Assembly (NCBI GenBank): GCA_015501595.1
Contig: JADNRX010000113.1
Span: forward strand, 62,001 to 126,000
Reading direction: 5' to 3'
Source of the DNA: Hymenopellis radicata
Lineage: Eukaryota > Basidiomycota > Agaricomycetes > Agaricales > Physalacriaceae
Length of the DNA: 64,000 nucleotides
A program made the position numbers and the translations under genes. Shown piece after piece: positions 8,679-56,890 of the stretch (positions within the stretch are counted from its first letter, which is position 1; every line of letters starts with the position of its first letter). The notes beneath the pieces are model-generated. The model was not told where the DNA came from and did no database searches. It saw only the letters and a list, made by a program, of their open reading frames with translations.

Positions 8679-9197
8679 ACGATTGCCAATGGCACACGGG
8701 GCGAAATAGTGAAAATCATATTGGACGAGCGAGAAGGTACAATGGAGGACGACGAGAGGTTGTCGATTTGAAGTATCGTCGCCGCAATATTGGCGAAGCT
8801 GAAGAAACGCGACTGAACAATGTCAGGTCTCGAGGAGCGCGTCTTACCGATACGTCCAGCTATTCAAAAGATGAGGATCAATGTGTGCGCGCGGGGAAAG
8901 AAACTGAAAATATGCACGGTTACACGCACATAATATCCCATTACGCCCGCATACGCATTCACTGACTATCGCTCACAAGGTCAAACGATCAGCAGTGTCA
9001 TTGTGGATTTAGCGAGGCCACCAAGCGGCAAGTTGAGTCTGTTCAACATGTACGTCGCGCCATCACGGAGCTCGGGTCGTGACACGATTCGTGTTGATGA
9101 GGAGACATTAAAAGGAGGCCATGAACCGGAATTGATGGAGGAAGATGAGAGACTGGAGGCATTGAACGAAGACAGAAAAAAGATGGTGGGTTATTAA
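8679..9197 (+). pseudogene. Pif1-like (Helitron-type) helicase, C-terminal relic
   Basis: Translated pieces match the C-terminal part of the Pif1-like helicases common in basidiomycete genomes. First comes IANGTRGEIVKIILDERE (from 8679). After a decayed middle section come ITPAYAFTDYRSQGQTIS (about 8935-8990) and VIVDLARPPSGKLSLFNMYV, followed by SRSSGRDTIR and an acidic tail ending at TAA 9195-9197. The TDYRSQGQT stretch corresponds to the conserved superfamily 1 helicase motif near the C-terminus. In-frame stops separate the pieces (for example after DDERLSI), and the N-terminal Walker motifs are absent. It is thus a dead fragment, possibly left by a Helitron-like or Pif1-family expansion. 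Confidence 0.7.
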
Positions 9198-9456
9198 GCG
9201 GGGAATGGTGTGATGTAGGGTTCTTGAGGCTTACAAGAGGCTGCACACTAATATTTACATGAATGTACCAGGGTAGACGGAAAAGTGGGACAATTTAGGA
9301 CGGGGAGAACCCTTGTCTAGCAAGGGTACTTCAAAGCAGAGTGCACACGTAACATTGGAGAATTTCCATTGTGCACCCCCGCTAGCATTCCGAGGGCACT
9401 ATGAGGGGTTACCGTATTGTGACATGCACTGACTCCTTCCCGGCGTTGTGAGGATC

Positions 9457-9695
9457 TGACCGGGCGATGATCGTCGGTGCAACAGCTGGGTAAGTCGACG
9501 CCTCCCTGAGACCGCCAGGTAAGTCCACTGGTGCGCGGGAGATGTTTGGCTGCGGGTGTGGGTGAGGAGAGTCTAGTTGTAGGCTGTGTAGAATTAGGAG
9601 AAATAGGTTCATCGATCTGTTGTTCCCTATTTGTACTCGATGGGATCGGCCCGATTAAGAGCGGGCGATGAGCGGGCGATGAGCGGGCGATGAAT
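9457..9695 (+). repeat. Dispersed repeat family A, copy 1
   Basis: A roughly 240-bp repeat shared with 32859-33094 (minus), 56210-56457 (plus) and, in part, 23296-23361 (plus). Diagnostic stretches are GAGGAGAGTCTAGTTGTAGG, GTAGAATTAGGAGAAATA and GATCGGCCCGATTAAGAG. The 3' end carries three units of GAGCGGGCGAT; the other copies carry one or two. No open frame is shared. Confidence 0.8.
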
Positions 9696-9746
9696 TCCCG
9701 TCAAGTCATGTGACTGAGCGTACACGACTGCTTCAACATTCTCTCC

Positions 9747-9754
9747 TATATAAA
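9747..9754 (+). promoter_or_regulatory. TATA-box-like sequence
   Basis: TATATAAA lies 34 bp upstream of an ATG at 9788, which opens about 22 codons (MRSELDFHAEGLSLIGSPDY...) before a GTAAG donor. The spacing is tight for a start codon. I could not follow the gene with confidence into the next exons. Confidence 0.3.
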
Positions 9755-9787
9755 CCTGCTCCCTTCCCCGGCTTTCCTTGGACTCCG

Positions 9788-10461
9788 ATGCGGTCTGAGT
9801 TGGACTTCCACGCGGAAGGCTTGAGCCTCATCGGCTCTCCCGACTACGACGACCGTAAGCTGTTCCAGACTGTGCTCTAGAGCATAGTCTCACCACCGTC
9901 ATCGGTGTGTATCCGACTTTGACTGCGCGGCCGTCCCGATCAACGTGATACGCCCTTCACCTCTTACCATCATTGCTGCCTCAGAGCACGACTAAATGCC
10001 GCTTATTGGGCCAGTGGGAGCCCTCTCCTGGGATTCTGGCTGACGAGGACGCGCCGTTGTCGTTACAGGTGCGAACTTTGCCTCGTTTTTGAACTCCCAA
10101 CTCACCATTTCTAGCCCTCATCACTGACTAGCGCTGTTAACCCGTGCCAACGCCGGCGGTGCTCATCTCCACTCGCCGCCCATACCAACCTCCCGGTAAA
10201 ATCCCCACCCGCGGAGCTGTAAGCCCTGCCAACGCAGGCGACGCCCATCTCCACCGCCCATCCCTAAAGATGACTGCGCGCCGCGCGGTTCCACCACGAC
10301 GACCCAGAGATTCTAATGGCAAACATGGTCTCAGCACCTCTCATGCCCCACTTGCAGACAAGAACCGTTTTCGTCAACCTGATACTCCCCCCGGGGTGGC
10401 GAGCCTTTCCTTCGGAGATTCAGATGCCCAATCTTTTCAGCGAGGTCAAGGCAACCAATAA
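9788..10461 (+). CDS. Possible small gene, unrecognised
   Basis: A TATA-like box at 9747 precedes an ATG at 9788 and a short exon ending at a GTAAG donor near 9854. An open stretch at 10144-10461 has Pro/Arg-rich composition (for example PRRPRDSNGKHGLSTSHAP) and ends with TAA. It begins with two imperfect copies of a roughly 60-bp GC-rich unit (CCAACGCCGGCGG... and CCAACGCAGGCGA...). I cannot show that the two exons join, and no family is recognisable, so this is a low-confidence call. Confidence 0.2.
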
Positions 10462-10679
10462 GACTTCGTCCAGAGTCATAGTACGCCACAGTGCATGCAT
10501 CTACCGCCTAGTGCACCCCCAACACACCAGTTGCCCACACCTTCATCTATCCATATTCCACTCATCGTCCGGGTGGTTCACCATCACATGCATCGTCAGT
10601 CCTCGCCTTAAGCTACCTCAATCCACACGATCGACCTTGATACTGCAAACGGCAAATCATCCTTCTATCCTGCAGAGCA

Positions 10680-11295
10680 GAGTTCACTCTTCGGGCTGGT
10701 GAGAGGATCGTACTGTTGCGTCGCACCAGATCCGGAAAGGGTACCTTGGCGATGAGCATCTTACGCTTTGTGGATCCAACGGAAGGAAGGATTCTCATTG
10801 ATGGAATCGATATTTCCAAAATCGGTGTCCATGATCTCCGCGAAAGACTGGCACGTCCGTTTGCCAACTCGGCGGTACTGAAGCTCATTATTGCTTTAGA
10901 CTCTCATTTCGCAAGACGTTTGTTTGGTATGCACCGGGAGGACTTGGACACCTTCAGTAAGTCTGCGGTTATTTCGGTGGTGGTGGTCTGATCGGTGTCT
11001 TGTTTACAGATGAACTCGACGACAACGAATGCTGGGAAGCTCTGTACTGAGTGCAGATTTTTACTACGAGTCAAATACCCTCTGAAGCCACCGCAGCTGC
11101 CACTTCGCGCCCGGCTTCTATAGATGTGTAGAGTGGGAGCCTACGGAAGGTTCAATCGCAGATTCTGTCGCTACAGATATGGACGGGAAGACGACTGCCT
11201 CGCTGAAAACGAAGGTGTCTCCTAACTTCTGCCAAGGTCAACGGCAGTTGATTGCGAACTATTCTCCTCCAGCCGGGGAACCCGGATTGGTAAGT
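10680..11295 (+). pseudogene. ABC transporter (ABCC/MRP type), second nucleotide-binding domain relic
   Basis: The first part reads FTLRAGERIVLLRR then TRSGKGTLAMSILRFVDPTEG and GRILIDGIDISKIGVHDLRE. This is the start of an ABCC nucleotide-binding domain, where the Walker A should read GRTGSGKST. Here the loop is RRTRSGKGT, with the essential Ser/Thr replaced by Gly. Pieces of the next conserved segments follow: ELDDNECWEALY then a TGA stop (normally YRVQ), and finally TASLKTKVS with a broken signature region, NFCQGQRQLIA. Walker B and the transmembrane domains are missing. It is a decayed fragment of a membrane exporter that lacks both ends. Confidence 0.75.
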
Positions 11296-11559
11296 CTCTC
11301 TTCCGTCTTCATCCGCCATCTGCCCTCCTCAAAGCTATAAACAGCGTTGCCCTAGTTGGACTACTGCGATCTCGCCGCATTCTGTGCATACCCACACTAC
11401 GCTTTCGTCGCCGTCGTCTACTGAACCACTCTATAGTCGACACAGCCGTAGAGTGGATAGCACGCGACGCCCGAGTATGCCGAGTCAGTCGATTTGGGAG
11501 TGGGACTCATCCAATCCTTGAGAGCGCGCTCTCCAAGCCGGAGTCCGACGATGATGACA

Positions 11560-12970: not shown

Positions 12971-13397
12971 GTCGACCACAATTGACGTCAAATAAGTGGT
13001 GAGCCTTCTTTCGCGCGTTCATGACATACCAATACTGAAAATGGTGAATATTCTTCTTAGAAATGCGCAAGGACAGCATCAAAGCGACCAAGACTGGCGG
13101 ACGTAACGCGCTTGGACGTTGACCGCGATGTCCGTCTGCACGACCTCAAAATCTCATCGTCAACGAAGCTTGCCTGTGTGGGCCAGTCGTCCTGAGCGGT
13201 CTAGAGAATTTTTTTTTCTGCGGATTTGTCTTACAGAGGACCCAACTGTTCTGATTATACCCGAATGACCCCAGCGTGGGCTCGCCATACGGGACTGAAG
13301 ATGACGGCGTCAACTTCACCGCTGGGCACGGAGTTCGACTCCGCCCAGATCGTCTCAAAACACGCCTTCTGCCACAACAGGCAGCACCACACCAACC

Positions 13398-13661
13398 ATG
13401 TCAGAGACGTCGAGTTCAATATCCTCGACGTCTGACGCTCCGTCCAGCCCGTCAACCAGCTCCACGAACAGTTCAAGCTCTACGCAGTCACGGACCTCTG
13501 CATCCACAACGACATCGACAACCACCACTACGAGCACGACATCCACTTCCACCATGACGTCCACCTCTACAACATCCACCGAGACTAGCACATCGACGAC
13601 CACAACGAGCACAAGTCAGGCGACGTCGACAACCCCGACCGAGACCTTCGAAGACGGCTGA
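13398..13661 (+). other. Ser/Thr-rich low-complexity open frame
   Basis: From an ATG at 13398, 87 codons are almost entirely Ser, Thr and a little Pro or Glu (for example STTTSTTTTTSTTSTSTMTS), ending in TGA. Such tracts occur in mucin-like secreted proteins, but they also arise from simple ACN/TCN repeats. The other two frames are open over part of the same stretch, so coding status is undecided. Confidence 0.3.
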
Positions 13662-13962
13662 AAGATGATGACGATGCTGAAAAGCGCGATCTGAGGGATG
13701 ATGAGGACTATTCCCATCCTGTTCTGGGAGTACGGCATCTTCTCCACCCTTGAAGCACATGCTAACCTGGTTCCTTAGGTTCGAAATATTCCGGATGGTG
13801 TTAGCGTTCTTTCCCAGTCTGCTTTCCCAGCCTTCCATTCATCGTGCGTCAAGGGCGACTAGTTTTCCGAATATCACCCGTCTAACATCATTCAGGGCAT
13901 TCTACGATAGTCCATCCATTCAAAATGCGAGAGAACAACAGGCACCACGAGCTTGTGCCACG

Positions 13963-15982
13963 ATGATGTCTTTCTGGACAGTCGCCCTCCATGTTCTCGC
14001 CGTTGCTGCAGCGATACCCAAGCCTCCAGGTATCCCCATGGTTGATATAGGCGATGAGTCCAAGCTCGCGATGCGCGCCTTGCCACCATATGACACAGTC
14101 TACTACTTTGACCAGCTTATCGACCACGACGACCCATCCAAAGGGACCTTTCAGCAGCGATACTGGCACACCTCGGAATACTACCAGCCTGGTGCGTGGC
14201 CTGTGACGTCTTTGAGGGAGAAACTGAACCATAGCAGGCGGACCGATTATGAATACAATTCATGAACGCTGGAGAAGTAAACGCGGCGCGTGCGTATACT
14301 CCAGCGGTCCAATTTGCTTCAACTGACAATACAATTCAGCGTATTATGGATATGTCACCAACAGCACGATAAATGGAGTCCTTGCCCAGAGATACCACGG
14401 TTCAGCCATCGTCCTAGAACACCGCTTCTTTGGTGAAAGCAATCCGTATCCTAATCTCAACGTCGACAGCCTTAAGCTCCATACCATTGCTCAGGCCATC
14501 GAAGACGATGTTTACTTCGCCCAGAATGTTGTTCTTCCCCAGGACAATGGATCTGAGCTCGGTCCGGACAAAGCACCATGGGTCTTGATTGGAGGAAGCT
14601 ACCCAGGTGCTTTGGTATGGCTGCGTAAGACAAGGATTCTCTTCTTACACGGCGGCGTCCTAACACCTGTTAGTCACCCAGATGTGTTCTGGATTGGGTA
14701 TTCATCTTCTGGTGTCGTTCAAGCCCAAGTGTACATCAGCTCGGTTATTTTAAACCGCGTTCTGACTGTCATGAAAGCGACTTTTGGCAATACTATGAAC
14801 CCATTCGGGAAAACATGCCGCAGAATTGTTCTGAAGATGTCAAAGCGGTCATTTCCCATGTTGACGACGTGTTCTTTGGCTCTGACTCTGCTGCCCAAGC
14901 CGCAGTACGGAGCAATTTCGGACTCAACTTCACGTCCAACGAATATGTGGCTGGAGCGTGTTAGTCTCTCCGTCTTTCCATCTTTCTTCAACTAATCGTG
15001 ATTCGGCAGTACGTTGAGATTTGTGGACCTGGCAAGACATGCAACCCAACACGGGGCCTTTCGCGGCCTTCTATCAGTTTTGCGACTCGCTAGAAGTCAA
15101 GGATGGCGTGTCCGCTTCTGCATCCGGGTGGGGATTGGACAATGCATTCGCTGCGTGGGGAAATCATTTCAGGACGACTTATGTTGACTTGGGTGAGCAA
15201 ATATATCTCATATCTCCGTGCATTCTGTCAACATTGATAGCGGCGGATTGCGTTGAGTCGGACGACACGTAAGTCTGGCCCTACCTCTGATTTCGAGGAA
15301 TACCAGTCTTATTATGACGAATAGTGACTGCCTCAATGCGGCTCATCCTCCTAGTCCGGCAGCTGTAAGATCGATACCACTTCCTAATGACAATTCCGCA
15401 TCGGTAGAGAAAAGGGCTGATTATCCGGTTGACGATGCGAACCGCTCATGGTTCTGGTTGGTGTAAGCGCTCAGCATGTCTCCCGTTGCTCTCACTGAAG
15501 CATACATGCTGTAGATGTAATGAACTTGGATTCTCTCAGGTGAGTGTCTGACTTTACGCAAGTGCACGCGTAGAGCACGCTTTTGATTGATATTAGGATG
15601 GTACGCCTATTGGGCAAGGCGGGATTGTATCGCGCTTGAATACTGTGCAGCTGTACATGGTATTACTCTTCACATACTCTCGAGAAGAATGTCGCATTGA
15701 TCGTCTCTTACCAGGCCGATTGTGTGTCCACCTTCCCTGAGGCATTCAGCGTACCACCAACACCTTCCGCGGATGCTGTGAACAAAGCGTACGGCAAGGC
15801 GATCCTTGGCGTGAAGTGACCGTGTCTGCTGTGAATAGTACGGCCAAGAGTACCGACAGGCAACCGATTAGGTTATTAAATGGCTTCCATGCGTCTGATT
15901 TGGTTATGCGGTTGGCGCTATTGTGGATGTGCAGACTTCGTTCTTGGAGTATGCTGGAGAGTGGCTAGCTGAGTTTTCATAG
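13963..15982 (+). pseudogene. Serine peptidase family S28 (prolyl/tripeptidyl peptidase type), decayed gene
   Basis: The multi-exon layout of an intact S28 gene is still visible. A signal-peptide-like start (MMSFWTVALHVLAVAAAIP) is followed by the FDQLIDH region, the block HRFFGESNPYPNL, the catalytic-serine motif GGSYPGAL (about 14591), DVFWIGYSSSGVVQAQ, WTWQDMQPNTGPF, the C-terminal Asp motif GDPWREVTVSAV, and GFHASDL with the catalytic His. The frame is broken in at least four places: after GGPI near 14250; a TGA at 15015-15017 just before WTWQDM; a deletion plus shift near 15805 that removes the segment before GDPW; and a shift near 15920. The true C-terminus (QTSFLEYAGEWLAEFS, stop 15980-15982) is in another frame. 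The parent enzyme would be a secreted acidic exopeptidase. Confidence 0.85.
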
Positions 15983-16129
15983 ATGTGGGGACGGGATGAA
16001 GAAGAGTAGCGTTTTGCTTGAATAATCTGATTTTTTTTATTCTGTCAATTGTGAACCTGTCGTCTTGCGTTCTTAGGGGAAGTTTTGACGATGTGCAGTC
16101 ACGTTAGCGTGGCGTTTTCGATCGGAAAT

Positions 16130-17106
16130 ATGTCAGACGGTGTACGTCATGGCCGACTTAATCACCAACCATCACGACCTCTAGCTTGCTCGTCCTCCCT
16201 CCGAGTCTCCGAAAAGCTCTTCGCGACGCCATGTTGCCGCCAATCCATCTGCACCAAATGCGTATCCTCTAATCCGCGATTAACGAGATATAATCCATGC
16301 CTGGCCTGCCTCGGCGGCGTAGGCGTCATCGCTGCGGGGAAAGGCAAGGTAGGATACGTTTGTCGTTGGGGACGATGACGATGACAAGATCCCGCCGCCT
16401 TATCCGGCTACCACAGATGAAGATGAGGCTTCTGCTCAAACTTTGGCCTCGGGCACTGCTGAGCCTCCTGAGCAGCACCATAAGAGTCTCAGTATTATCT
16501 CAAACGCACAGACACCTTGCAAGGACTTGCGCTCCGGTTCGGCGTCGATGTGAGTCCTTTATCTCTTGTTGCCTACAGAACTAAGACGCTCACAGGGTAG
16601 AGAGCTCTGTAAACTGAACAATCTGCCCTTCAGCACTCTTTCAATCACTCCTCATCTTCTACACACGCGGGACTGTATCCTACTCCCGCTGTCTGCCAAA
16701 ACAGCATCGTACGTTCCCGTTATGCTGTACAGATGTCAGGACGCCAATGTCTGTCGCAGCACAGACTTAAACCACCCCACGCCTGACGAGCAACGTCGCC
16801 GCGAGGCCCGACGCGCTGAAAAACGCCTGCAGGTCGTGACGAAGGAAGCTGACTGGCGGGTGGCGCGTGCCTATGTCGCACTGGCTGATGATGATGCGGA
16901 GCATAGTACTTGTGGTGAGGACACGAAGAATGCGCTGAAGGCGCGCAACCAGAATGTGGAAGTTTTGTGCGTTGGATCGGTATCTTGATGATGCCGAGTG
17001 GGAAGCTCGCGCAGGGCAGCCACGGATCCGGGGCTTTCCTTATTTTGCGCAGAAGAAGGATCTGGTTGAAGCTGGACCGTCGAGGTGGAAGTTTAATTTA
17101 TGGTGA
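16130..17106 (+). pseudogene. LysM-domain protein with N-terminal cysteine-rich finger, decayed
   Basis: The N-terminal part has zinc-binding cysteine spacing (ATPCCRQSICTKCV and YNPCLACLGG). An acidic linker in a second frame (DDDDDKIPPPYPATTDEDE) is followed by a LysM domain in a third frame: YYLKRTDTLQGLALRFGVD, an intron with GTGAGT donor, then GRELCKLNNLPFSTL. The C-terminal part contains EADWRVARAYVALADDD, and in yet another frame RYLDDAEWEARAG through KFNLW and the TGA at 17104-17106. At least three frame changes cannot be explained by introns. LysM binds chitin-type glycans or membranes; intracellular fungal LysM proteins of this layout exist but are poorly known. The start at 16130 is the first ATG in frame with the finger. 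Confidence 0.7.
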
Positions 17107-17459
17107 TGCTATTAGGCCTGTGGATTATATTTACTTGTAATTTTATAGACTTCAGCGCCTTAGCGCCTTGCGTGATGTATCAAGTTGGGAAGCTCATCCC
17201 ATATCTAGATTTCATTACTTAGCAGCGGGTCGGTCTCGAGCGACTCTAGCACAGGGTACGAAGACGTGCAATTCATTAGTAGAGCTTTCCCTTCAGGGAA
17301 CGAAACCATCCAGACGTCATGTATGGTTCTTTTCGGTACAAATGATTGGTTCAATGGTCATACAGTACATTGAGGGCCGGATGAACCAAAACATAGGAAA
17401 GTCGTTTCTGTTCTGGCTATTGTCCCTGTCCTGCCTGCCGCCTGTGTCTCTTTCGTCGT

Positions 17460-17640: not shown

Positions 17641-17812
17641 TCCTCACAATCTCCTCATGCGGATCACGCGGTTTTGAAATTCCGGGGGAATCGGGCTGAT
17701 TACCCGCATTAGATCGTCTGAATGTACGGAGACGGCTCAAAGAGAACTCGCGATAAGGATGCTCGATAGAGTACAGAAAAGATAGCTATGTATGTAGTCC
17801 AAATGCAGCAAG

Positions 17813-19568
17813 TCAGATCAGAGTATGGACGTAGTAGAATCCGCCAGAATGCGTCCAAATAACACTGTCTGGCGGAAATATTTTTTCTTCAACATGCAGC
17901 AATCGGCCAGGAGAATTGGCCTATGGTTCTAGAGTTATTCCAATATTCACAAGAGGGGATGCACTCACGTATCGAAATTCATTGATCTCGTTAGTAGTTG
18001 TGCGCCCCGGTGTTAAACGAGAAAGTGTATATATCCGAGCGTCTTGCTTCATATTTTGAACGATGATTTCGGTTAGCCTTTCGCTTGCTGGAAGAGAGGT
18101 CAGCGTTGTCAAACAACAGTGCCGCAACACTCACTGTCGGGATTGAAAACCAAATTGTTGACTAAAATGACATCCGCCTTTGCTATTTGCAGCGGCACCT
18201 CGGGATGTGCTAGGAAATCACCTTGCACGGCGCGCATATGTCCTATCTGAAGGTTATGGGCCTCCGCCAATAGCTGTGCTTGCTCTATGAAGACAGAGGC
18301 GAGAGCGGCAGCCTCTTCCACCTTTTCAATACCAAAACTACTACACCCGGTTTTGAGGGACAGTTCGACGACGACGTTTCCGCAGCCACTACCGAGATCA
18401 GCAAAATGGGAGTGAAAATCCAACTTGGTCTCCTGGTACAAAGTTCGTTGAGTTCACCATACACCTCATCGGTGCCAGGTTCGTAGTTACGCGTCTTCTT
18501 TAAGGCGGGGACCACTGTCTTCTCGTAGACTGAAGAGAAAATTTGGCCTGCAAGGATAAGGCGTTCAGCTGGGCCTAGAAGCTGTGAGGGTTCCACAGAG
18601 TCGAATAGGTCATTGATTTGGCTCAATATATGTTGCGATTGCGAATAATCCTGGGCTTCTAAAGCGTTGTAGAAGCTATCCAAAAGGTGCTGGATGACGT
18701 CCTCAATCAAAATCCGTACAGGAATAGTACAACCCACCTGTCCAGCTGCCTTTCTCTTCCCTGAAAGGCCGAGGGCTGGTTGGCAGTCAGTAGACGCTGG
18801 AAGAAAAGAAAGAGGGCGCACAAGAGAATAGGGCTTTCACTAGATTCCATAGATCGTGTATTGGCGCATAATACACATCTTTCCTCTTGGGCTCTACTAA
18901 GAGAAACCTGAGAGGGATGAATTTCAGCTCGTGTCGCATTTGGGCAAAACATGATCAGCTGACTCTTCTTCTCTCCTAGTTCCTGGAAAATGTAATGTTA
19001 GAATAGGTAGGGTAACGCCAGGAAACCCTAGACATGGGCGTCAATGAAAGTAAATGAGGGAAACTAAGTGCCCACATGTACAGTAGTTCTTGAGGTTATT
19101 CTCCACTACCCTGCGAGAGTCAATCACGGCCGGAAATCGATCAGTATGGTAGCCCCAGAGCGCAAGCTGAGGAAGATGTCGTCTGAAGCCTCCCGGATTC
19201 TCCATTCGCGTGAATGTAATGGTCGTAGGTGTTAAAATCTCCGGTGCGTTGCCAAGAGGAGAGGTGGACGGATAGTGCCTCGTTATCCTATCTAATTGGG
19301 CAGAGCCCGAAGACGGTCCTCCGAGCTCTATGACCGAGTTCTTACTTGGTCTACCAACCGGACGAGGACCTCCTTTTGCCAATCTACTTATTTGAATACA
19401 TGAAACGGTGTGTCATGGAACTAAAGCCTACCTCCTTCGATTCAAAGCCTTTTCTTTGAGCTCTTCCTTCTTGCGCTCAGCTGCCGCCGCAGCTTCTTTC
19501 GTAGACCTATCTCTGTAGTAAGCACCGGTAGTTCGTGGTAGATCGCATACGGAGCGGTAGTAGCTCAT
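17813..19568 (-). pseudogene. DOT1-like histone H3-K79 methyltransferase, frame-disrupted copy
   Basis: Reading from an ATG at 19568 on the minus strand: a Lys/Ala-rich N-terminus (AAAERKKEELKEKAL); an AT-hook-like GRPSKNSVIELGG (19041-19382); FPGVTLPILTLHFPG; then RFLLVEPKRKDVYYAPIHDL. Next comes a helical segment ending NYEPGTDEVYGEL (the DOT1 YGEL motif). The SAM-binding motif FADLGSGCGN follows, then ADVILVNNLVF, and the C-terminal end VIWTHSGGFYYVHTLI with the stop at 17813-17815. These are the landmark blocks of DOT1 in order. At least two frame breaks lie between them: near 18930, and directly after YGEL near 18440, where one T appears lost from a T-run. The parent enzyme methylates nucleosomal H3 in the nucleus. 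Either this is a recent pseudogene, or small indel errors should be ruled out. Confidence 0.75.
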
Positions 19569-20826: not shown

Positions 20827-21513
20827 ATCACTGGAGGGGCACCGTGACGATAAGGACATCCAATGATGCAACTGGTGATTTTCATACCTTATACGCCGTG
20901 TTTAATTACTGCCACTCGTTTATAACTCTTACTGTATATATTGTAGCTTTATCTGGCCTAACAATCCGTTTTCTCGTATCTGCTGTGTGAGCCCGAATGT
21001 GGAGAAGAACGACAGTATATAGTGAAGCAGCTGAGGACCTCCGTTGTGAATATCCCGAAGACGTTGCGTGAGGGTGTCGCAAGACGCCCGGCAGGAGGGG
21101 TGTCAGACGACGCGAAAAATATTTATGAGATGATATCCTGAGGATATCGCCATGATCGGTCGACGAGGTCTACCTAACAAGATCGTTTGATCACCCGTGG
21201 GATCGTTTTATGACATTCTTCCTGACCTGCGGTGTAGCACCATCTTTCCCGAGAAGTCGGCGGATATCAACAAACTCGGCGCCACGTACCGCAAGTACAA
21301 CTTGCTCTCATACCTTATCGGTCGAGCAGAGTGCTACTTGGTACAAGATGAGTTTGCTGTAGGCTTGGAGATTCTCGAAGGTGGAAAACTCCGAGAGTTT
21401 ATTGATAGAACAATCGCATTATTTGCATAGATTAATATGACTAGTACTTACTCGAACGATTACATATTAGTAGTATGATGACGATATGTTCTCAGTCGGC
21501 CGCTTGAGAGTCT
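20827..21513. other. No supported gene
   Basis: This is the 3' flank of the preceding gene. A 78-codon open stretch at 21197-21430 (ILPDLRCSTIFPEKSADINK...) lacks an ATG and may be a gene fragment, but I do not recognise it. Confidence 0.4.
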
Positions 21514-21522
21514 GGGCATCCG

Positions 21523-22947: not shown

Positions 22948-22956
22948 CTATCGGCC

Positions 22957-23276: not shown

Positions 23277-23295
23277 CCATCACGGAGGTCTCCAC

Positions 23296-36790: not shown

Positions 36791-36962
36791 CTGTGGCCCG
36801 ACAGGTAGGAGGCGGGGCTTTTTTTAACATATCTCACATCATTTTTTCTCTTCTGCGCATTACTGATTGACACTACACTGTTTTTACCCACTGCATCCTC
36901 ATCCTCATCATACTTATACCCTTCGCCAATCACTCATGTAATAATTGTATCAAAGTTCCATA

Positions 36963-44639: not shown

Positions 44640-44912
44640 TTGCAAAACGATAGGCGGGTCCAAAACTGCTGTCGTGTGGGCGGAGTTGGAATTTTAGCAC
44701 GGTTCAAGCCGACCTCTGTTGTATCTGGCCTCGCACCATCATATAAGTAGAGCCATACGAGAGCGGTAGTATTTGACGAGTATATACCTCATGTATAGTG
44801 TCTAGACGAGTAGGAAATAAAGCAGCGAAAGTGGGAGGTGATACTCGCCGCGACCCGGCCAGATCGACAATTTAAACTCACAGCAGTTTTGGACCCACCT
44901 ATCGTTTTGCAA
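44640..44912. repeat. 33-bp inverted repeat, 207-bp spacing
   Basis: TTGCAAAACGATAGGCGGG... at 44640-44672 recurs inverted at 44880-44912 with one mismatch. The right arm lies inside the decayed gypsy integrase region, so one arm may be a copied or inverted patch of the element. Confidence 0.7.
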
Positions 44913-46404: not shown

Positions 46405-46938
46405 CAGACGCCGTCGTCTATCAGTATTCCAGTTACAGGGGCGGCCACGGATAATTCCCCGACGCGATTGTGGAGGTAGACATATCCAGGAGGCAGCACA
46501 ACCGTGTGAAGCTATTCAAAGATAATCATTCTTAATAACCGGCGAGAGGATCAATCACTTACCCTGGGACGTTGCAAGTGGCGATAATCTGCCTCAAACG
46601 TCGTCACAAGTAAGCTCCAAATCGAAGAAAATAAGGCACTTTTTCCCCAGGTTCAAGCTAACCCGGCAAGGGCGCCGGGCCGCCGCCGGCATCCACGCCG
46701 CCCAAGTTTCAAACAACTGTCTTCCGGGAATCCAGAAGTCCTAAGTCAGGTCATTTAACAGTTGGGAAATCGATAAACGCGTTACAGTTGCGAGTTGAAG
46801 GCTGGCGACGATGATGGTGCAAGGAGAAGGATGCACTGCCGCTTTGGGACTTGGATGTGATCGACGCTCTGAACTGGCTTCCTCCCATCACTTAATATAA
46901 CTGACCGAAATCGCTTTGAATATTTCTACATCTCCACC
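46405..46938. other. No supported gene
   Basis: This probably holds unrecognisable upstream retrotransposon sequence, then the 5' flank of the Argonaute fragment. Confidence 0.35.
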
Positions 46939-47372
46939 ATGGCCTCAGAGTTCCAAGTCAAGACAAATTGTTTCGAAATTGTCAAGTACGTCTACGCCTG
47001 CCAACTTGACGCCGTATCCTCATGTCTTGCTCATGTCGCTGATAGGCTGCCAACAACAGAATACTATCGATATAATGGTAAGCCCTTCCAGATAGTCTAC
47101 GTGCCTTTTCTGATTATCCCCTCAGTTGGTATGTACGCGTTGACCGTCTCTAGGCATCCTAATGCGTCACCGCTTAGAATTCTCTCCGAAGCCCAAGACC
47201 TTTTGCAAGCGACGAGAGGTCATACAACGTTTACAAACAGCGTTGCCCCCGCGACATTCCGCCCCAAAGCCTTGTATGATGGCGACGCCATTATCTACTC
47301 CTGCAATATGGCAACATCCCGTCTCAGTAATGGACGGTTTGTGTACCCTAAGGGCATCCGCACGAAACGATA
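46939..47372 (+). pseudogene. Argonaute N-terminal (ArgoN) fragment
   Basis: Exon 1 starts MASEFQVKTNCFEIVK with an ATG at 46939. After an intron (46986-47045), KLPTTEYYRYN follows, then a second intron and a possible 4-nt microexon before GILMRHRLEFSPKPK and KRREVIQRLQT. The frame then slips by one base to SVAPATFRPKALYDGDAIIY and SNGRFVYPKGI. The sequence (V)KTN-F-I-x-LPTxxYYxY ... KRREVIxxLQ ... F-PKALYDG is the start of fungal Argonautes of the QDE-2 type. PAZ, MID and PIWI domains are absent and unrelated sequence follows. The parent is the RNA-silencing slicer. Confidence 0.65.
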
Positions 47373-47939
47373 GAAGCTGCCGATATGCATCATCCACCTA
47401 ATAGTCAAGATGCAGGTTGTGGAGTTTTGGAGGGTGGCGGCCAGAGGTTCGAGTGGGCGCGGTCGTGCAAGCGTGGCCTACTCACTTTCTGAGGCCTCAC
47501 CAAGTAAGCGTCGCACATCGCCCTATCCAGCTTTGTTTTCCTGTACCTATGCTGACTCCTGCTATTACATTTATCTCCTACCCCCCACACCCTTAGCCTC
47601 GCATCCATAGAACGTCTGGAGTTGGATATGACCACGGATGTCGACGATACCGTGTTTCTCGCCACGGATGACTATTGGGGGTGCAACTGGTCCGGTATGC
47701 TACCCATGTTCTGCCCCTCCACCGTGGATCCTAATCTACTGGCGACTCTTATGTCACCTGGGAGGGCGTTTCCTGTTTCCCAATGTCGCTGGCAAATTAT
47801 CGGACGCGGATCTCCTGTACATGCGAGGAAGACCTTTAAGGTCACACAGTTCGTGGATCCGGCAGCTTTTGCTGGCATAGCCGACGATGGCGAGGTTGGT
47901 GAAGACGTGGCAGTCGATGGTGATGGAAGTCTGTATGGG
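47373..47939. other. No supported gene
   Basis: Overlapping open frames on both strands without family resemblance. Confidence 0.35.
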
Positions 47940-48520
47940 ATGTAGAGCACTGACGCGCCCGTGTCTGAGTTGGACATAGAACCAGCGTGGCCGAACTGCA
48001 CCTCGGTAGTGAGTGCATCTCGGCGCAAGTAGGTACCGATGGCCCAGGTGACGATGATAGGCTTCTTGAGGACACCAGAATTGACTGCCTCGATGACACG
48101 GTATTCCTCGACACCACCTTGACACCACCAACCTCACCAAGGAGGACGCATCTTGCATTCGGGATCAGCCTTGAAGTAGAGGGTAACGATCACACCGATG
48201 GCAATACCTCAGGAGTTCCGCGGGTAATCAGGTCAATGATGGTCTTGGCCTACTCGTATGTACATAGTTGACAAGCTCGTGAACGAATCCTAGGACGCGA
48301 CCAGTGAAATTTCGATAAAATGCGGCGTGCATACACGTACCACAAGCACTGTCAAGCAGCAATGACGTTGGAGTAGACGACAGATGCACCTCGTAGACGC
48401 TGAGGTTACGGGCGATAGTCCACATCATGCCACAGATGCTCTCCGCGGTCTGGTCGAGCTTAATAATAATAGCCATGTCGAGGAGTCGCCAGAATTTCAA
48501 TTTCAAACAAAACCGCACTA
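47940..48520 (-). pseudogene. ATP-citrate lyase, internally deleted relic
   Basis: Two blocks of the enzyme are recognisable on the minus strand. LDMAIIIKLDQTAESICG with MMWTIARNLSVYE (about 48490-48380) belongs to the N-terminal citrate/ATP-binding half. KADPECKMR, then GGVEEYRVIEAVNSGVLKKP, IIVTWAIGT, and TTEVQFGHAGSMSNSD (about 48190-47950) belong to the C-terminal CoA-synthetase-like half, where FGHAG carries the catalytic phospho-histidine. Several hundred residues between them are missing. Frame changes surround GEVGG, which is partly duplicated. The parent makes cytosolic acetyl-CoA and is normally single copy. Confidence 0.75.
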
Positions 48521-49146
48521 AAACCGCTGACCAAGCTTAATCGGGGCAACGTTTCACCGGCACCTCGCAGTCCTTAGAAGAAAGAAAGCACGCCGTCTCG
48601 TCTTCGCGCGAATGGAGCCGACGGCAGATGATGGCGATGTCTTCAACTGACGTCGGTGTTGTCAGTCCCGAGAATGTCAAGTTGGAAGACGAGGTACGTA
48701 CCGTTTCGCAAATTCCTGCTTGACGAATAGTCCTAACGATCTGCTTGATCCTCATAACGACATCAGCTGGCTGGGCGCGCACCCGTGAGCGACCAGACCC
48801 GCCCCATAATGTCGGGGTGGGTTCTAAGAAATTGTCATAAAGGAAGGAAACAGAACTGATGGCAAAGTCTCGCGTACTTCCCAAAGAAGGACCCCTCTGA
48901 ACGTAGCTCCACAACGCAGGCGGAATTGATATGCGCCTAACGCCTCTTCGAAGAAGCAAGCGCTTGACATGCCTTGAGGATACGCATTTCTGGGAATGGT
49001 GCGATCAATGATAGACGCCACAAGGTTTTCTCGCAGACTCGGAGGTATAAAAGTGATTAGATAGACCAACAAAGAATACGTATAGAGGCCAGCCTGTGCA
49101 CTATTCAACATGTCGTTATAAAGGGCAGTAAGTAACAGTACAGTAA
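48521..49146. other. No recognised gene
   Basis: Minus-strand open stretches (for example SLLVYLITFIPPSLRENLVA near 49060) look protein-like but are short and unassigned. Confidence 0.3.
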
Positions 49147-50987
49147 TTAGTCCTGAATGTCATCACTGACGGTCGTGGCTTGTGGCGGCTGCGAGGTAGT
49201 CGGACTTGAGGCAAACTGAGAGTTGAAAGGGAGAGTTGATGGTGGGCTTGCAGACGAATAGGGTGTGTGGCTCAGCGGTGTCATACCCACAGAGCTACCG
49301 TGGGGCCGGGCGCTGTTAACGCTCTGTCCTGGAAACTGATGAGGGTCAAGAATGAATTTTTGTTCATCGCCGACAGAACGAAAGGGTTGAAGTACCTTGA
49401 TTTCGTTGAAAGTGCGTACTGCAAATAACCAAGCGATTGTCACTGTGATGAAGATGGCAGTCGCATAGAAAACAAGTAGAAAAATGTTTCTAAGAACATG
49501 TTCCACGTCGGAAAAGGTAGATCTGGCGAACGAGACGTGGACAGAGCCTGTTTGTAGGGGATCGATTCCGCCTTGGGTGGAGGTAAGAGGTCTTGTAATC
49601 GGACTATGACGTTTGACCCAGATCAGAACGCTGGAAGGTTGTTGGAGAGTAGAACCCGCGATGGCGATGTAACTAAGTTCCTCTGTGCTGCACGTCTGCT
49701 TAGCACGTCAGTCAACACAAGTACACTCCAGGAAGACTGGCTTACAGCAACGGGCTGAACTAATCCACCAAGCGGATAGTCCAGCGTTCCGACGAGTTGC
49801 TTGGAAGCGGTGTCGTAGACATTTGCTTTACCACGATCAGTACCGCCTACCACCAGTTTTGAACCCTCCACAAACGCAACTTGCTTCGGATATCGAACCA
49901 AAGGCGGATCGCAGGGAAGAGTGCAAAGTAACGAGGTGTGACATAGACTATCCCTTCTATACAACTCGAAATCTTGCCCGTTCATCGAAACGAACGCGTC
50001 CGAGCTTTCATTCACAGCAACCGACGCCCTTGAAGTAATTAAGATGATAAAGATCAAGAAGATGGCGAGGAAGCTCACATAACAAGAGGGGCTTCTTTGT
50101 TCTCCTTGATCAAGGCGCCTGTCTTGCCATCAAGTAAAGCCCTGTTGATATATCATTAGTGATTTAGCATATAGAAATGAAGTAGACGAGCTTACAGGTG
50201 TCCTCCCGTCCTAGAGAATACGAGTACATGACGCGTTTTGTTTTCAAAGGCAACTGTTCTGGGGATGTACTTCGCCGGCAACTTGACAGAGAAGATTTTC
50301 ACGAAACCATCCTCTGGAGACAAGGCGTAGACCGAGACTTGAGGTTCCGTAGGATTTCCATGGCTGAAGGCGACGCGGGCTCGGTTACGTGATGGGTTGA
50401 CCACGTCAGAATACACGCCAAGAGAGATAATAGCGGCCTCGGAGCCACCAACGGACCCCATAGGTAGCTTATGAGAGTCGTAAAACTTCTGTACAGAACG
50501 CTCAAAACAAAGCAAATGGAGGTTGTGCGAAACACGCACTCCAGCTCTCGCGTTGAAATTCCAGGTTACTATTCTGCCGTCATCGGAACCCAAGACTAGG
50601 GTGTACAGGTGCACTTTGGTCAAGTAAATCCAGGTACAAACAGTACAGTGGAGGTCATCATCGGGAACAGGAATCGGTAGGAAAGACGTAACGTCCCAGA
50701 TGAATACTTTGCCACCTTGGCCCGCTGTAGGTAATGAAGTTTAGAGGCGTCGAAGCATGTAGGAGAGAGATTCACTGGTAGGATTAATTTCCGCTAAAGA
50801 TGAGGAGCGTCAGGTGGGGAAGTACTATAAAGCGAACAGGCTCACTGATAGCAGCCAAAAAATGACCATCATGGGAGAAAGCTAGACGACAGACGCCATC
50901 TTTTGGCCCCCTCAACTCTTGGTAAAAACGGTAATCGGGAGGAGGGCCGGAGGTGTGAACGGGATGAGAAGACATTTGGGCGGACAT
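49147..50987 (-). CDS. WD40-type protein with C-terminal membrane anchor
   Basis: Six exons on the minus strand (50846-50987, a microexon 50776-50793, 50196-50724, 50079-50141, 49746-50028, 49147-49695) splice in frame to 527 residues. WD40-like blades are visible: KDGVCRLAFSHDGHFLAAI, GQGGKVFIWDV, LVLGSDDGRIVTWNF, KQVAFVEGSKLVVGGTDRG then KANVYDTASKQLVG. Near the C-terminus a hydrophobic helix (IFLLVFYATAIFITVTIAWLF) is followed by a Ser/Pro-rich tail, so it is probably anchored in a membrane with the propeller on one side. The 18-nt microexon is phase 1 on both sides and joins ...LAAI to TEINPT-TGQGGK. An ATG at 50975 is an alternative start. Its function is unknown. The divergent neighbour starts 280 bp away. 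Confidence 0.7.
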
Positions 50988-51267
50988 ACGGTGGCGCTAT
51001 GGTTCTCAGCGTAGCCGTATAAATGTCGACCATAACAAAGGGATAGGTCTTTGATGTGATCAAAAGTGCAAGAAAGGAATTCGTCGGTCAGTCCGGGCCG
51101 ATTTAAACCTTCCTTCATGGTCGTCGGTCAAAGAGCTTTCATTTTGGAATAGCAAGCGTCTTCAAGTCGTCTGGACACAAACGCTTTTCTGTGTAATTGT
51201 TCTTAAACTGTTAAGCGTTTTCTCGTCGTTCCGCCACTCATACGATCTGCTTCCCGCCGTTCCCAAT
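50988..51267. promoter_or_regulatory. Divergent intergenic region
   Basis: These 280 bp separate the starts of the minus-strand WD40 gene and the plus-strand gene at 51268, so they should hold both promoters. I saw no clear TATA box. Confidence 0.3.
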
Positions 51268-52572
51268 ATGTCCTCTTGCTTTAACCCCAACCCCTTCCTC
51301 TCACTCGACCGCACCGAAATTCCAAGTCCGAGGGTTTCGACCAACCTTGATCAGACTACGTTACCCTCTGTTGGACCTAGTCGTACACGCCGCTCTGGTC
51401 GGCGTTCCTCCCCTTACCCGTCTCGGTCACCTTCGCCTCACCCCGACACCGAAGCCATCGCTACCGGGTCGTCTCCTTGGGTTCGACGTTCTTCGTCACC
51501 TTCGCTCTCGTCGTCCTCCTCATCTTCATCCACCGACTTTTCTTTGGATGATGAGGACGACGAGACGCCGTGGGCAACAGTTGCGCTTGATCCATCCGTT
51601 CGACGTGCTTCCCCTTCGGATCAACCTTCAGCTATGCAAGGCAAGATTTTATTAGCACAACAGGAACCTGCTTCCGAACAGACGGCGCCCACGCAGCCAC
51701 CACCGCCCCGTTCTGTACCACAATCACAGCCCGTTTTCCATCAACAACTCCACCCCAGTCGTCTACGTCCCAAACTTCATCGCAACCGTCGTCATCTTCA
51801 TCCCAACCGCCGCCGTCTTCATCCCAACCGTCGTCGTCTTCATCTCAGGCGTCGTCTGCATACCCCAGCGCGCCATCTACCTCCCAGTCCAAATCCCCCA
51901 TTCCTGAGCCGTCTAAGCCAGTTGTCACCTCTGTTCCTCATGAGCCGTGGAGTGGTAGCGGGGCTCGCAAGTTTCGGGAAAGATCCCGAAGCCGGTGGGC
52001 GAAGTCGGAAGACCAAAGCGTGGAGGATACAACCTTGAAAAGACTTTAGATTGGCCCGCATCTCTGTTTTCAGACGTCAAGGTAAGCATTTCTTACCTAG
52101 TGTTACATCGTCCGACTCATGAAGGAATAGCGCGAAATCAAAGTCTTAGTCTACGAGAAAATGGACTGCCGTACAGGCTTTGCTCATCAACCGCAAAGCA
52201 AGATAGAATACGTTCATGAAGAGGTGATTCTGCTGATGCTTATGATATTACATTGACTAACGTTCAACAGGCCCTCGTCCTTTATCCTTGGCTGGATAGG
52301 TATGAAAAGTTGTGGGTCGTAGATGACTTCATTCGTGGCCACTTAAAGTATCGAAATCCGCATTGCAGAGGGAGGATGACGCTCAAAGGCATATCCAAGC
52401 TCAGGAGCGCATTCAGGAGCTGGAAAGTAGACGCCAGCATGATCATGTCATCATTAGACATCCTAGTTCTTTTAGTTCTGTAACTTATCATTGTCCGTTG
52501 AACAATACCTTGTCTTTGCATCGCTGTCTTGAGATTAATCGCTCTAGGCAAACGGTCAGGCTGAGCTCTTAG
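51268..52572 (+). pseudogene. Conserved fungal hypothetical protein, Ser/Pro-rich N-terminus, frame-disrupted
   Basis: From the ATG at 51268 a Ser/Arg/Pro-rich disordered region runs in one frame. A second frame carries SSSSSQPPPSSSQPSSSSSQ-type sequence and HEPWSGSGARKFRERSRS. A third carries GEVGRPKRGGYNLEKTLDWP then ASLFSDVK. After introns come KMDCRTGFAHQPQSKIEYVH and LVLYPWLDRYEKLWVVDDFI RGHLKYR, then, shifted again, LQREDDAQRHIQAQERIQEL. GGYNLEKTL.WP and LWVVDDFIR.xLKYR recall a family of agaricomycete proteins of unknown function with a basic linker and coiled end. Three frame changes not explained by introns suggest recent loss, although indel errors are possible. Confidence 0.5.
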
Positions 52573-53894
52573 GGAGTGTAAATCAAAGAGTAGCCGCAGG
52601 TCACACTGTCCGCAAGCTTGATGTGGGATGACCAGCAAGGGTGTTGACGGTTGACATGATTATTTGACTCAACGGCTTCATCACCTCTCGACAACGGTGC
52701 TAGGCCGCGGCCTCATCGAGAGCATCGCAGAGGCCCCGTTCCAAGCAGACACGCTTCGCCATTCCGTCGCCCCGGAGTCCGGAAACCTGGCCGCGTTTCC
52801 AACGCTGAACGAACGCACAAAGTACCGCCGGAAACTGGCATGCGACGCTCCCATAAATATATACTGGTCATTCGAAGTGGTGATGAGTTGCTTAGGGAGC
52901 TCGCCTGTGTGACTAAACAGGAACATAGCTGAGAACCAGGAAGCAACGCGTTGAACATCAGTGAACAAGACAGACAACGACGCGGACAATTTCTGATACA
53001 CTTGATTTTGCCAATCTGCGCCCAAGTCGGCCGTTCGGTACCGTTAATAGTGCATCCGACGGCTGTACTGCGTACTAACCAACGATGTTCTGACCCTTCA
53101 CCCGCTCAGGAGCTAGTGTAGTGGGAAAACATGTTAACAATACATCTACAGTCTAAGATAAAATAAACTAAAATCCAGGTCAAGATTCTTCAAATCTATG
53201 CCATTTGTTCGCTAGAAATTCCATGACTGTAGTTAATGATTAAGAACGGTTGTGTCCCCGCCCTCGGTGTCGCATTAACATCAGGATGCCCAAAAACGAG
53301 GTGGCAGTAGGACAGCAGGTGAGTGCGCCACAGGTTAGGAACATACCCTGCTTCTCTAATCAGATCAACGGCCGAGTACAGAATAATGAAACCAAGCAAT
53401 TAAGGGTGAGAGAGAGAGCTTCGCCGTGCGCAAAGTCGTTCAGCATCCGTAAAATATGTGATTCCTTGCAAGGCCTTGTAACGACCTTGCAAGGCTCAAC
53501 TGGTGTCACTGTAAGGCCGCTGGAAGGTCTTGCAAGCTATCAGATATGAACACGTCGTAAATGATGAAAATTTGTGTTTTATTGACTTGTGGCGTGGAAT
53601 CATGATACGCGCCAAGACACGCGAGCAACGCATTAGGCATCGTACTAAGCGCGCAACCCCTACCGACACCCACATTGCCAAAGACCGGAACTCGCCAAAA
53701 GCTCACCATGTCCCTTAGAAATCGATGCGCCGTGATGAGGCTAGAACGGATCCACAAGCGCCGTCGCAGGATCCGACTTCCTCGCCGCCTGCAGATTCAC
53801 CACCCCGCCAGGGACTGAGCTCATCGCGTGCCCATAGAAGAACGCTGCGCCAGCCTGCTCCACGACCGACCGCACTTCCGACATCATCACTGGA
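52573..53894. other. No supported gene
   Basis: A minus-strand open frame at 52681-53025 is unassigned. CTTGCAAGG-type short repeats occur around 53465-53540 (CCTTGCAAGG three times). Confidence 0.35.
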
Positions 53895-54720
53895 TTGGCG
53901 TTCCGGACAAGAGAACACGATGCTGCGTACGGCTGCACTTGACGGCTTTGGTAAGCCTCGTTTTGGCGCTCTTGATGACGTGCCCATCGTCGAGTATGCA
54001 GTAGAGCCAGTTCTGAGTTGAGTTGATGCCTTCCAGGTCGGAAATGTCGTTACGCACAACTTCATAGGCTGTGATGGACGTCGCATGAAGAGACTTTGGA
54101 AAGAAGTCGTTGTCGCTCGTGAGCGTGGCCGGTGTAGAGCATGGGCTTCAGGTTATCGGCGTACTTGAAAATCTCGTAGTACCACGGGCCTGTCAGAGTG
54201 GGTGGACAGACGATCAACAAGGCTAACGGAACAGCATCCGGGGACTTGGCCGCCTTGCACGCTTCCTTGCAAGCATGCATTTGGACTGTAAAGTCTTTCC
54301 GAGACCCATATCTACGCGTCATTTAGGCACTGTTATCTGAAAGGTTGAGAGAAACATACCGTCGCAAAGTATTCCATGCTGATGATACTTAGCCAAGAAA
54401 GCCAACCAATTGATACCATCTTGCTGATACGGATGTAATTCGGCGTTGATCTTAGTCGGGATCGTGTACTGCTCGACTTTACTTCCGTCCAAGAGCTGAG
54501 TGAGGAAATTGTCTCTCTTCATCACGCTTCTTGAGCAGGTCTTCGGGGAAGTCTGGTGGATCAGGCAGGCCAGCCTAAAGAGGGCACGAACACTTGAGCG
54601 GTACATCAAGCTTACTTCAAGCAGAACCATCTTCACCAACGAAGCGAAGGTATTGGTGGCAGTTGAGCACATATCTATGCTGTTCCAAACGAAGCAAAAA
54701 TAAATACCATTGAAACAGCT
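53895..54720 (-). pseudogene. MOT1/BTAF1-type Snf2 ATPase fragment
   Basis: Minus-strand sequence reads TNTFASLVKMVLLE, FLTQLLDGSKVEQYTIPTKI, LHPYQQDGINWLAFLAKYHQ and HGILCD, then after an intron (54312-54359) MGLGKTLQ (Walker A). A frame change follows directly. The other frame continues SPDAVPLALLIVCPPTLTGP then WYYEIFKY, LYTGHAHERQRLLSKVSS, WLYCILDDGHVIKSAKTRLT and HRVLLSGTPIQ. The order and wording match MOT1, which strips TBP from DNA. The DEGH box of motif II reads DDGH. Everything after GTPIQ is lost at about 53895. Confidence 0.8.
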
Positions 54721-56209
54721 GTTTTTTGTAGTCGGAACACGAATTTGAGCACTCGCAACATTAAATGAACTCACCGCAAGTGGAACTCCAGCTTTCGAAA
54801 ATGAAGCCGGCATCAACGACACTTGAGGAGGATTTTCGCAACTTGAGGAGGATCTTCGAAAAAGCATACTGAGCCCGTCGCAACCACAGCACGCGTCGCA
54901 ACAGTGCAAGACGTTCGAAACTCTTGATGGTACTCGTTGCAAGTGAGTCAAGCTCCGCAAATGTGACGACTGTGACAACTGATATTTCGAAAGTCGGGCG
55001 CGACGATTTCGAGAATGATAAATATGGTGTTAGTGCTGCAAAGATTAAAGCTTGACACTGGTCAGTATCCGGCTCGTATCCAGCTTCCCAAGTGGCTACT
55101 CGCGACACGTCAAAAAGTCGGCCTGCGACTGATGAGTCTGGAGCAAACTCCTGGCAGCATTATTCATGCCCGTTGGCGGCCCCCGAGCAATTACGCAGGG
55201 GCTACACAACGTGCATGAGCCGTGGGCATGATGATAGACCGCCTGGATGACGAAGGAGGCTGCTGGCAAGGAGTGTGGTGCTGACCATGTGATCGAGGAC
55301 AGTGACCGCGAGGATGTGGCCAGGAGAACATACATTTGTGGCCGGGATACGTGCGCCACGCCTGTTCATCCTGGCCGTAGTCTAACCATTGACAAGGCCT
55401 CGTTGCAGGCAGTGAGACCAATCCGAATTATTGATGCCTGCACACTTGCTCCAGGTATGCAGCTGCCTCGTCCTGAAGGCTGAGGGCTTATACTGACAAA
55501 GGCGCATTGAGATGGCACCGGTCCGGCGTCCCGAAGACGAGCACCAGAATCCGTCCATGGCCAGAAACCCTCTCTGGCTCGACGGTAAGAGACGCTTGGG
55601 AAAATGTCTCAACGTCGCGCCAGGTGATGAACCTGAAAGAGGTTAGGGAACACACAGCCACGCAGTACGTCGAAGACGTACAGAAGACGCGCCGAGGACG
55701 CGATGGAGAAAGCGCGGAAGATACCATTAAAGAGAGGACGCGCCGCAGACGCTGGATGAGGAGATGAGCGCCGCAGACGCACGCGCCGAGGACGCAGGAA
55801 AAAGCACTCACAGAATCAAGACCACTCGATGATGAGAGATCTTAATACTACATCTCACTTACGACCTGAGTGAGGTGGAGATGTATGAGTGCTACGGTTA
55901 GTAAATAGAGATAGTGCACTCACTCGACGATTACCCTTGTATAAACCCTCGTTTAACCCCGAACGATTGTCAAGAGGCGGAGTACTAGTGATTCCCGCCA
56001 GGGCTCAAAGTGACCTACAAAAGAATACCGTCGTATGTAGGTGACATCATCAGGGCGAGTATTGTTGTACGGCGCCCACCTAATGGGTCCTCAGAGAGGA
56101 GATGTTTTTTAAAAGTGTGGGGTATGAATCTGCCACGGAGATGAGGTGTTCTTATCAGATACCGGATTGTGACTTCACTGAGCTTGAAGGGCCTCGCGTT
56201 TTGAGGGTG
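54721..56209. other. No supported gene; short GC repeats near 55685-55800
   Basis: The left part may hold older MOT1 sequence. From about 55685 the words ACGCGCCGAGGACGC and GCGCCGCAGACGC alternate twice each. The rest shows no genes that I can support. Confidence 0.35.
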
Positions 56210-56457
56210 TGAGCGGGCGATGAGCGGGTCCTCGGTGTTACGGCAATAGCTGGGTAGGATGCCTCCCTGAGGCCGGCAGGTAAGTCAACCGGTGCACTGC
56301 CAGCTTTGAGAGACTTTTGGCTGCGAGTGCAGGTGAGGAGAGTCTAGTTGTAGGCAGTGTAGAATTAGGAGAAATATGTTCGTCGATCTGTTGTTCCCTG
56401 TTTGTACTCGGTAGGATCGGCCCGATTAAGAGCGGCGATGAGCGGGCGATGAGTTTA
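56210..56457 (+). repeat. Dispersed repeat family A, copy 4
   Basis: Full-length copy starting TGAGCGGGCGATGAGCGGG and ending with two tail units and GATGAGTTT. It is about 90% like copy 3 by eye, and the central GAGTCTAGTTGTAGGCAGTG is identical. Confidence 0.85.
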
Positions 56458-56464
56458 TCAATCA

Positions 56465-56890
56465 TAATGTCGCGCGCGTACGACTTTAGTTCTGCTCATC
56501 ATGTGTCGAGCTCGTGCTTGGACAAACTCTCGCGTTTCAAATATTCGCACAAAGTCCTCGACGAGAGCAATGTGCATGGAGACATCAAATTCCAGGAATG
56601 TCGAAATATAATTGTCATGGTACGTTTTCTGAATCCTATTCAATCTTCATTGCTAGTTGGCGCTGGTCCGTCTTTCTGATTCAATGCTAGGCGTGAGTAC
56701 ATCTGCTTGCATACGCAACTTTCGCTTTCCTGAAACAGGCGAGTTTGTCGGACTGTAGCTGAGCGAACAGCGGCAAGGACTTTATGCATTGCGGACATCC
56801 GGGGTCGCATTTCGGCGCTCAACGACCTCGCCTGCGAAATCCAGGCCATAGCCATCATCCACACCGGCGACTTTGGCTTTGTGACCTGTT
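56465..56890 (+). pseudogene. Calcineurin-like metallophosphoesterase, N-terminal fragment
   Basis: An ATG near 56467 opens MSRAYDFSSAHHVSSSCLDK and HGDIKFQECRNIIVM up to a GTACG donor. Downstream, TLCIADIRGRISALNDLACE and IQAIAIIHTGDFGFV (about 56787-56880) match the opening of a fungal metallophosphoesterase family. It has the first metal-binding Asp (ADIRGR) and the GDFG motif. The rest of the domain, with its His residues, is absent. Confidence 0.5.

Follow-up and report, generated by a model that had tools for sequence, protein, structure and literature searches.

How do pieces of many unrelated cellular genes come to lie side by side in one short stretch of a mushroom genome? The question is raised by the window analysed here, 64,000 nucleotides of Hymenopellis radicata (positions 62001-126000 of contig C147, in an assembly of 75,490,766 bases and 1,405 contigs). 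The genome of this decayed-wood mushroom was published for strain IJFM A160, and the methods of that project, which covered more than this genome step, include PacBio sequencing and Falcon assembly (PMC8480192). The original prediction, made from the letters of the window, was that eleven truncated or frame-broken gene relics had been delivered to this place repeatedly and left to decay. We find copies of the pieces, and donors for most of them, elsewhere in the same genome; two insertions can be compared with a site at which they are lacking, and chimeric junctions are common to the independent contigs C840, C1165 and C1205. The reading that we prefer, with a probability of roughly 0.6, is that the window is a mosaic of segmental duplications, in which copied genomic stretches were end-joined into breaks, the resulting blocks were re-copied, and the pieces decayed by small deletions.

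At least 64.0% of the window has a copy at ≥85% identity elsewhere, with transposons counted in, and at least 31.1% has a copy at ≥85% identity beyond contigs C147, C840 and C1205. These figures are based on 99 of the 248 listed match rows (omitting self rows, matches within the window and shorter repeats of the same segments), and are lower bounds, the searches having scored best candidates only. Two 6-kb control stretches, chosen arbitrarily within large contigs rather than as a random sample, both lack any copy at ≥85% identity above 37 bases; the stretch from C629 matches paralogue pieces at 62-82% and has a single 37-base match at 95%, while that from C1295 matches only itself. The pieces in the window are ~0.5-3.4 kb in size, and their donors are spread over many contigs at identities of ~84% to 99%, so that pieces of unrelated loci are juxtaposed and donor identity is high, as in a segmental-duplication mosaic. 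The parental copies that had been anticipated in the same genome were thus found by DNA matches for most pieces, and the range of identities agrees with the proposal of a compartment that receives duplicated gene pieces repeatedly.

Nine of the eleven named relics are supported, namely those of an ABC transporter, an S28 peptidase, DOT1, FAB1, a bromodomain protein, SCC2, Argonaute, ATP-citrate lyase and MOT1. Pfam directly identifies the ABC transporter ATPase, the S28 peptidase (Peptidase_S28) and the bromodomain. The FAB1 relic (36361-36732) matches PIP5K in Pfam and 7k2v in PDB (E 1.4e-20), the ATP-citrate lyase relic has a PDB match (E 9e-7), and the MOT1 relic (54322-55029) matches several chains (E 4e-17; 7zb5 among them) that bear the name 'Helicase-like protein' and that we take to be Mot1. 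Two identities come by way of a related copy: that of SCC2 from C1296, which matches the piece at the DNA level and has a frame that matches Mis4 and NIPBL (a PDB search with the window open reading frame (ORF) itself gave no match), and that of Argonaute from a weaker copy on C1073 (54% at the protein level) bearing ArgoL1 and Piwi (the window ORF itself has no significant PDB match). The LysM and metallophosphoesterase relics were not confirmed, as Pfam is empty for the two window ORFs and two C930 ORFs concerned with the former, and in six frames of 55-58 kb for the latter. Over the whole window, the Pfam matches are ABC_tran, Peptidase_S28, DOT1, DUF6589, PIP5K, bromodomain, DEAD, SNF2, retroelement domains and a weak WD40, with further weak matches to Herpes_Helicase, SOG2, CRISPR_Cse2, ResIII and Meg. 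The tRNA and Rfam scans of the window found nothing.

The relics are indeed truncated, since donor sequence continues where the pieces end. The claim that their frames are broken stands for DOT1, which has a 10-bp deletion relative to the open copy on C840. One-base frameshifts are not usable as evidence of frame breaks because the assembly appears to hold residual consensus error, in the window, in C1205 or in both: window 52632-55721 differs from C1205 by 13 one-base indels and no mismatches, while the preceding 4 kb has 32 mismatches. The relics also represent fewer events than eleven separate captures, FAB1 and the bromodomain gene lying in one piece and DOT1 being shared with C840 as a resident copy. 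Because the FAB1/bromodomain piece spans two convergent genes, it does not fit an origin from a single transcript, and RNA-mediated copying is unlikely for it.

The manner of arrival can be followed at two insertions (events 1 and 2 in Table 1). In event 1, the donor copy is retained on C659, the right junction has a 3-bp overlap (TAG), the left junction has a 3-nt filler, and the termini are CT...GGTG. There is no target-site duplication, and the flanks, when joined, read as one open frame. Event 2 (termini TC...CCCG) replaces 44-48 bp that are retained in four other copies, the distance between the flanks being 48 bp in C147:53301-54200, and 47, 47 and 44 bp in C840 at ~38.6, 162.9 and 108.5 kb, respectively. 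Its size is given as a range on account of a few bases of ambiguous alignment; here too there is no target-site duplication, and alternative boundaries gave the same outcome. Contig C1205 has the same left junction as event 2 and most of the insertion.

A scripted search for flanking direct repeats of ≥4 bp found none at any of nine pieces or blocks, both dissected insertions included. The same search did find flanking repeats at two of two transposons: 5-7 bp at 28466-29552 and, only when 2 bases of slack were allowed, 7 bp at 21520-22206, an inverted-repeat element. Capture at double-strand breaks fits because the two filled and empty sites lack target-site duplications, and on this ground repair with ectopic DNA is the best-fitting of the three routes that had been suggested. 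The overlaps at internal deletions of ~1,000 bp (C463 piece), 407 bp (FAB1) and 173 bp (SCC2) are 0-4 bp. A precedent is described for Cas12a mutants of Magnaporthe oryzae (PMC9684475): two of eight assembled mutants took distant genomic DNA, including coding sequence, into the break, and three of four junctions showed microhomology of 2-3 bp.

Another of the suggested routes was that transposons, either Helitrons or inverted-repeat elements, captured and carried the gene pieces. The window does contain many transposon copies (21520-22206; 28466-29552, with target-site duplication; retroelement domains at 44.8-46.5 kb), and event 2 holds a truncated inverted-repeat element and starts with TC. 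However, a target-site duplication is missing at all nine pieces or blocks, and neither resolved insertion has the TC + CTRR pair of Helitron ends as defined in PMC4289320, a paper that reports no intact Pleurotus Helitron with host gene fragments. General Pfam scans, with no dedicated search made, revealed no Helitron replication gene. For the two dissected insertions the transposon route is not supported, and we consider it an unlikely explanation of the window as a whole.

Once in place, the pieces change mainly by losing sequence, in agreement with the predicted decay. Eleven comparisons with donors (14 were run, the other three being between the window and C840) show 36 deletions in the window copies as against 13 insertions. 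The pieces also differ from their donors by substitutions and by multi-base deletions. Mutation of the repeat-induced point mutation (RIP) type was considered and rejected: in the same 11 comparisons, C-to-T/G-to-A changes and their reverse number only 148 to 110, and CpG loss is 51 to 33, which is a mild bias and no hypermutation; the polarity here assumes an unchanged donor.

The relationship to C840 indicates that blocks were copied after they had become mosaic. Window 1722-8065 and 17667-19661 together run parallel to C840:201619-210450 at 97-98% identity, which shows that C147 and C840 carry two versions of one region. DOT1, in the second of these blocks, is a resident gene copy rather than a fresh capture. 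The Pfam model of DOT1 is matched in full, over two stretches, by the copy on C690. A composite made of the C1029 and C1385 pieces (36191-38742) is 99.4% identical on C840, and the junction at 11257 is shared with C1165, so that already-mosaic blocks have been copied secondarily. The order and orientation of the blocks shared between C147 and C840 differ. A 76-bp tandem repeat at 38380-38818 (5.8 copies, 98%) is present in C840 too.

Assembly chimeras or unresolved haplotypes might alternatively have made the mosaic. Some contigs do resemble allelic pairs, such as C930 and C1240 (95% alike), and the one-base indels against the end of C1205 occur without mismatches. On the other side, the junctions recur in other contigs, the same empty site for event 2 is seen in four copies, and pieces are separated from donors by substitutions and multi-base deletions. 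We regard an assembly artefact as very improbable.

For the mosaic of segmental duplications, we envisage the following course. Ordinary genomic DNA (~0.5-3.4 kb, in one case with two neighbouring genes) was copied from unrelated loci and would, as the junctions of the two dissectable cases suggest, have been sealed by end joining into a double-strand break, recurrently over time. The mosaic blocks were later copied, inverted and shuffled among C147, C840 and a few other contigs, and the pieces decay mainly via small deletions.

Several points weigh against this reading. Only two insertions have an empty site, and that of event 1 rests on a short match and on the open frame across the joined flanks, because on the right side C840 agrees with the flank for just 22 bp (E 9e-7) before it diverges. 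For event 2, the donors are candidates, matching at 88% on C1073 and C536 in the region of the MOT1 part, and for the ATP-citrate lyase piece the matches listed include no close DNA copy. The boundaries of older pieces may have eroded, making a missing target-site duplication weak evidence there; much of the duplicated sequence in the window is transposon; and junctions like these would also arise from replication-based template switching. The divergence of C840 22 bp past event 1 would also mean that both versions of the region were broken within 22 bp of each other. The C840 sequence beyond that point has no match in window 19001-30000.

Where in the genome such a mosaic resides is a separate question. 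It may be a subtelomeric or pericentromeric patchwork on ordinary chromosomes, like the human duplicons, and we give this possibility somewhat less than an even chance. A 0.9-kb repeat, 96-100% identical, sits at the ends of C840 and C147 and, in five of six other contigs (C659, C805, C669, C984 and C85), no more than 2.1 kb from the end. The mosaic blocks were copied serially, and a DEAD helicase piece in the window is read as RecQ-like; in Agaricus bisporus, RecQ genes are known to be subtelomeric (PMC7473861). The sixth contig, C528, carries its copy 21 kb inside, however, and any long repeat can also end contigs. Perfect four-fold telomere repeats occur on four other contigs and are found on neither C147 nor C840, and these four contigs are absent among the listed matches to the 0.9-kb repeat. 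The window has two pieces read as RecQ-like helicases, at 27416-27847 (-) and 39978-40217 (+), with one Pfam DEAD match in this half of the window.

A less probable setting is an accessory (B-like) chromosome assembled from core-genome pieces. Among the matches listed, the repeat at 55959-56462 hardly occurs beyond C147 and C840, two contigs that account for 0.49% of the assembly, and scrambled blocks are common to both; animal and plant B chromosomes are described as mosaics derived from A chromosomes (PMC6406668, PMC13066641). Unlike the window, the accessory genes of Tremella fuciformis are described in the latter as mostly lacking core homologues. With similar reserve, we offer the speculative idea that C147 and C840 form a dedicated acceptor compartment, perhaps a B-like mushroom chromosome that has a repeat family of its own as a mark and was built up as core DNA was repeatedly captured by end joining. 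A degenerating, non-recombining mating-type region would account for C147 and C840 being two scrambled versions of one region, but of the 23 matches listed for the STE3 pheromone receptor not one is on either contig, and this setting is hardly credible.

Table 1. Positions of the mosaic pieces, shared blocks and repeats in the window
Feature	Position	Strand	Remarks
Block collinear with C840	1722..8065	+	C840:201619-207985, 98%
Stretch differing from C840	8066..17615		9.55 kb in C147 against 395 bp in C840, with matching flanks
Repeat block	9410..10607	+	Among matches listed, only on C840 and C147; first part related to repeat 55959-56462
ABC transporter piece	10682..11485	+	Chimeric junction at 11257, common to C1165; C1307 continues as gene
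C463 piece	13339..13818	+	1.0-kb internal deletion with ~4-bp overlap
C930/C1240 piece, 3.36 kb	13818..17181	+	95-96%, then 87-88%; S28 peptidase and downstream ORFs called LysM in the original prediction (LysM not confirmed)
Block with DOT1-like gene	17667..19661	-	97% to C840; 10-bp frame-breaking deletion at 18433 relative to open C840 frame
Event 1	19662..21234		1.57-kb copy of C659:38937-40513, 99.4%; C840 keeps site joined
C1029:17825-19618 piece	36097..37400		FAB1 end (+) and neighbouring convergent bromodomain gene (-); 407-bp deletion; from 36191 on common to C840 at 99.4%
C1385/C851 piece	37773..38359	-	92%; donor is a 617-codon open frame
SCC2 piece of C1296	40273..41136	-	89-90%; 173-bp coding deletion
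Argonaute N-terminal piece	46873..47370	+	Copies on C840, C945 and C1073 (C1073: ArgoL1 and Piwi)
ATP-citrate lyase piece	47675..48133	-	PDB match
Repeated block	48985..53448		Also C147:49150-53570 (97%) and C840:104104-108461 (92%); C1205 has block and following insertion
Event 2	53446..55961		2,510-2,516-bp composite: MOT1 piece, truncated inverted-repeat transposon, other
Compartment repeat	55959..56462	+	23 matches listed; excluding query, 20 of 22 on C147 and C840, several matches being parts of one copy
Inverted copy of C840 block	60894..62508		Near-identical to C840:144613-146227 (99.75%)

The donor frame of the C1385/C851 piece has neither a Pfam nor a PDB match. Several transposons lie in the window. 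The inverted-repeat element at 21520-22206 has 220-bp ends that are 98.6% alike and is present in many copies at 78-95%. The transposon at 28466-29552 (1.09 kb, 5-bp target duplication) has a 99% identical copy on C951, which directly adjoins and apparently interrupts a glyoxal-oxidase gene. Within a retroelement relic, a 297-bp insertion with 40-bp inverted ends (44632-44928) is absent from C604 and C624. The end of C840 (C840:211951-218594), which has no match in the window, is full of repeats common to many contigs, a pattern that transposons would give rather than gene pieces.

Neither mosaic duplication compartments nor the patching of breaks is new. In the open-licence literature, the part of the search results that was viewed holds no description of such a compartment in a mushroom. 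For natural gene-fragment capture in a mushroom, the window provides filled and empty sites at base level. It suggests that pieces, once captured, lie clustered, are copied again within chimeric blocks and lose sequence by deletion; in this way, it shows how a genome can accumulate a scrapyard of such fragments. Should the clustering hold across the genome, it would offer a route to study where fungal genomes place stray DNA and whether chimeric genes originate there. For annotators, truncated single-copy genes in this region are duplicates, not losses.

Compared with known systems, the window resembles Helitron gene capture in having gene fragments without target-site duplications, but its resolved insertions (n=2) lack paired Helitron ends. 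With B or accessory chromosomes (PMC6406668, PMC13066641) it shares, at the level of sequence, a mosaic make-up of pieces that stem from other chromosomes, the presence of gene fragments and a nearly private repeat. The patching of double-strand-break gaps, known from Magnaporthe Cas12a and from plant gene movement (wheat paper PMC3445842), is alike in its copied DNA, absent target-site duplication, small overlaps and retained donor; it differs in that the window pieces pile up in one compartment and that the break itself would be deduced from the junctions.

The last comparison is with the pericentromeric and subtelomeric duplicons of humans. For primate duplicons, there is a two-step model of formation. 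The window differs in that its pieces measure ~0.5-3.4 kb and belong to a compact fungal genome; what the two have in common is that unrelated gene pieces stand side by side, and that mosaic blocks are re-copied within a restricted compartment.

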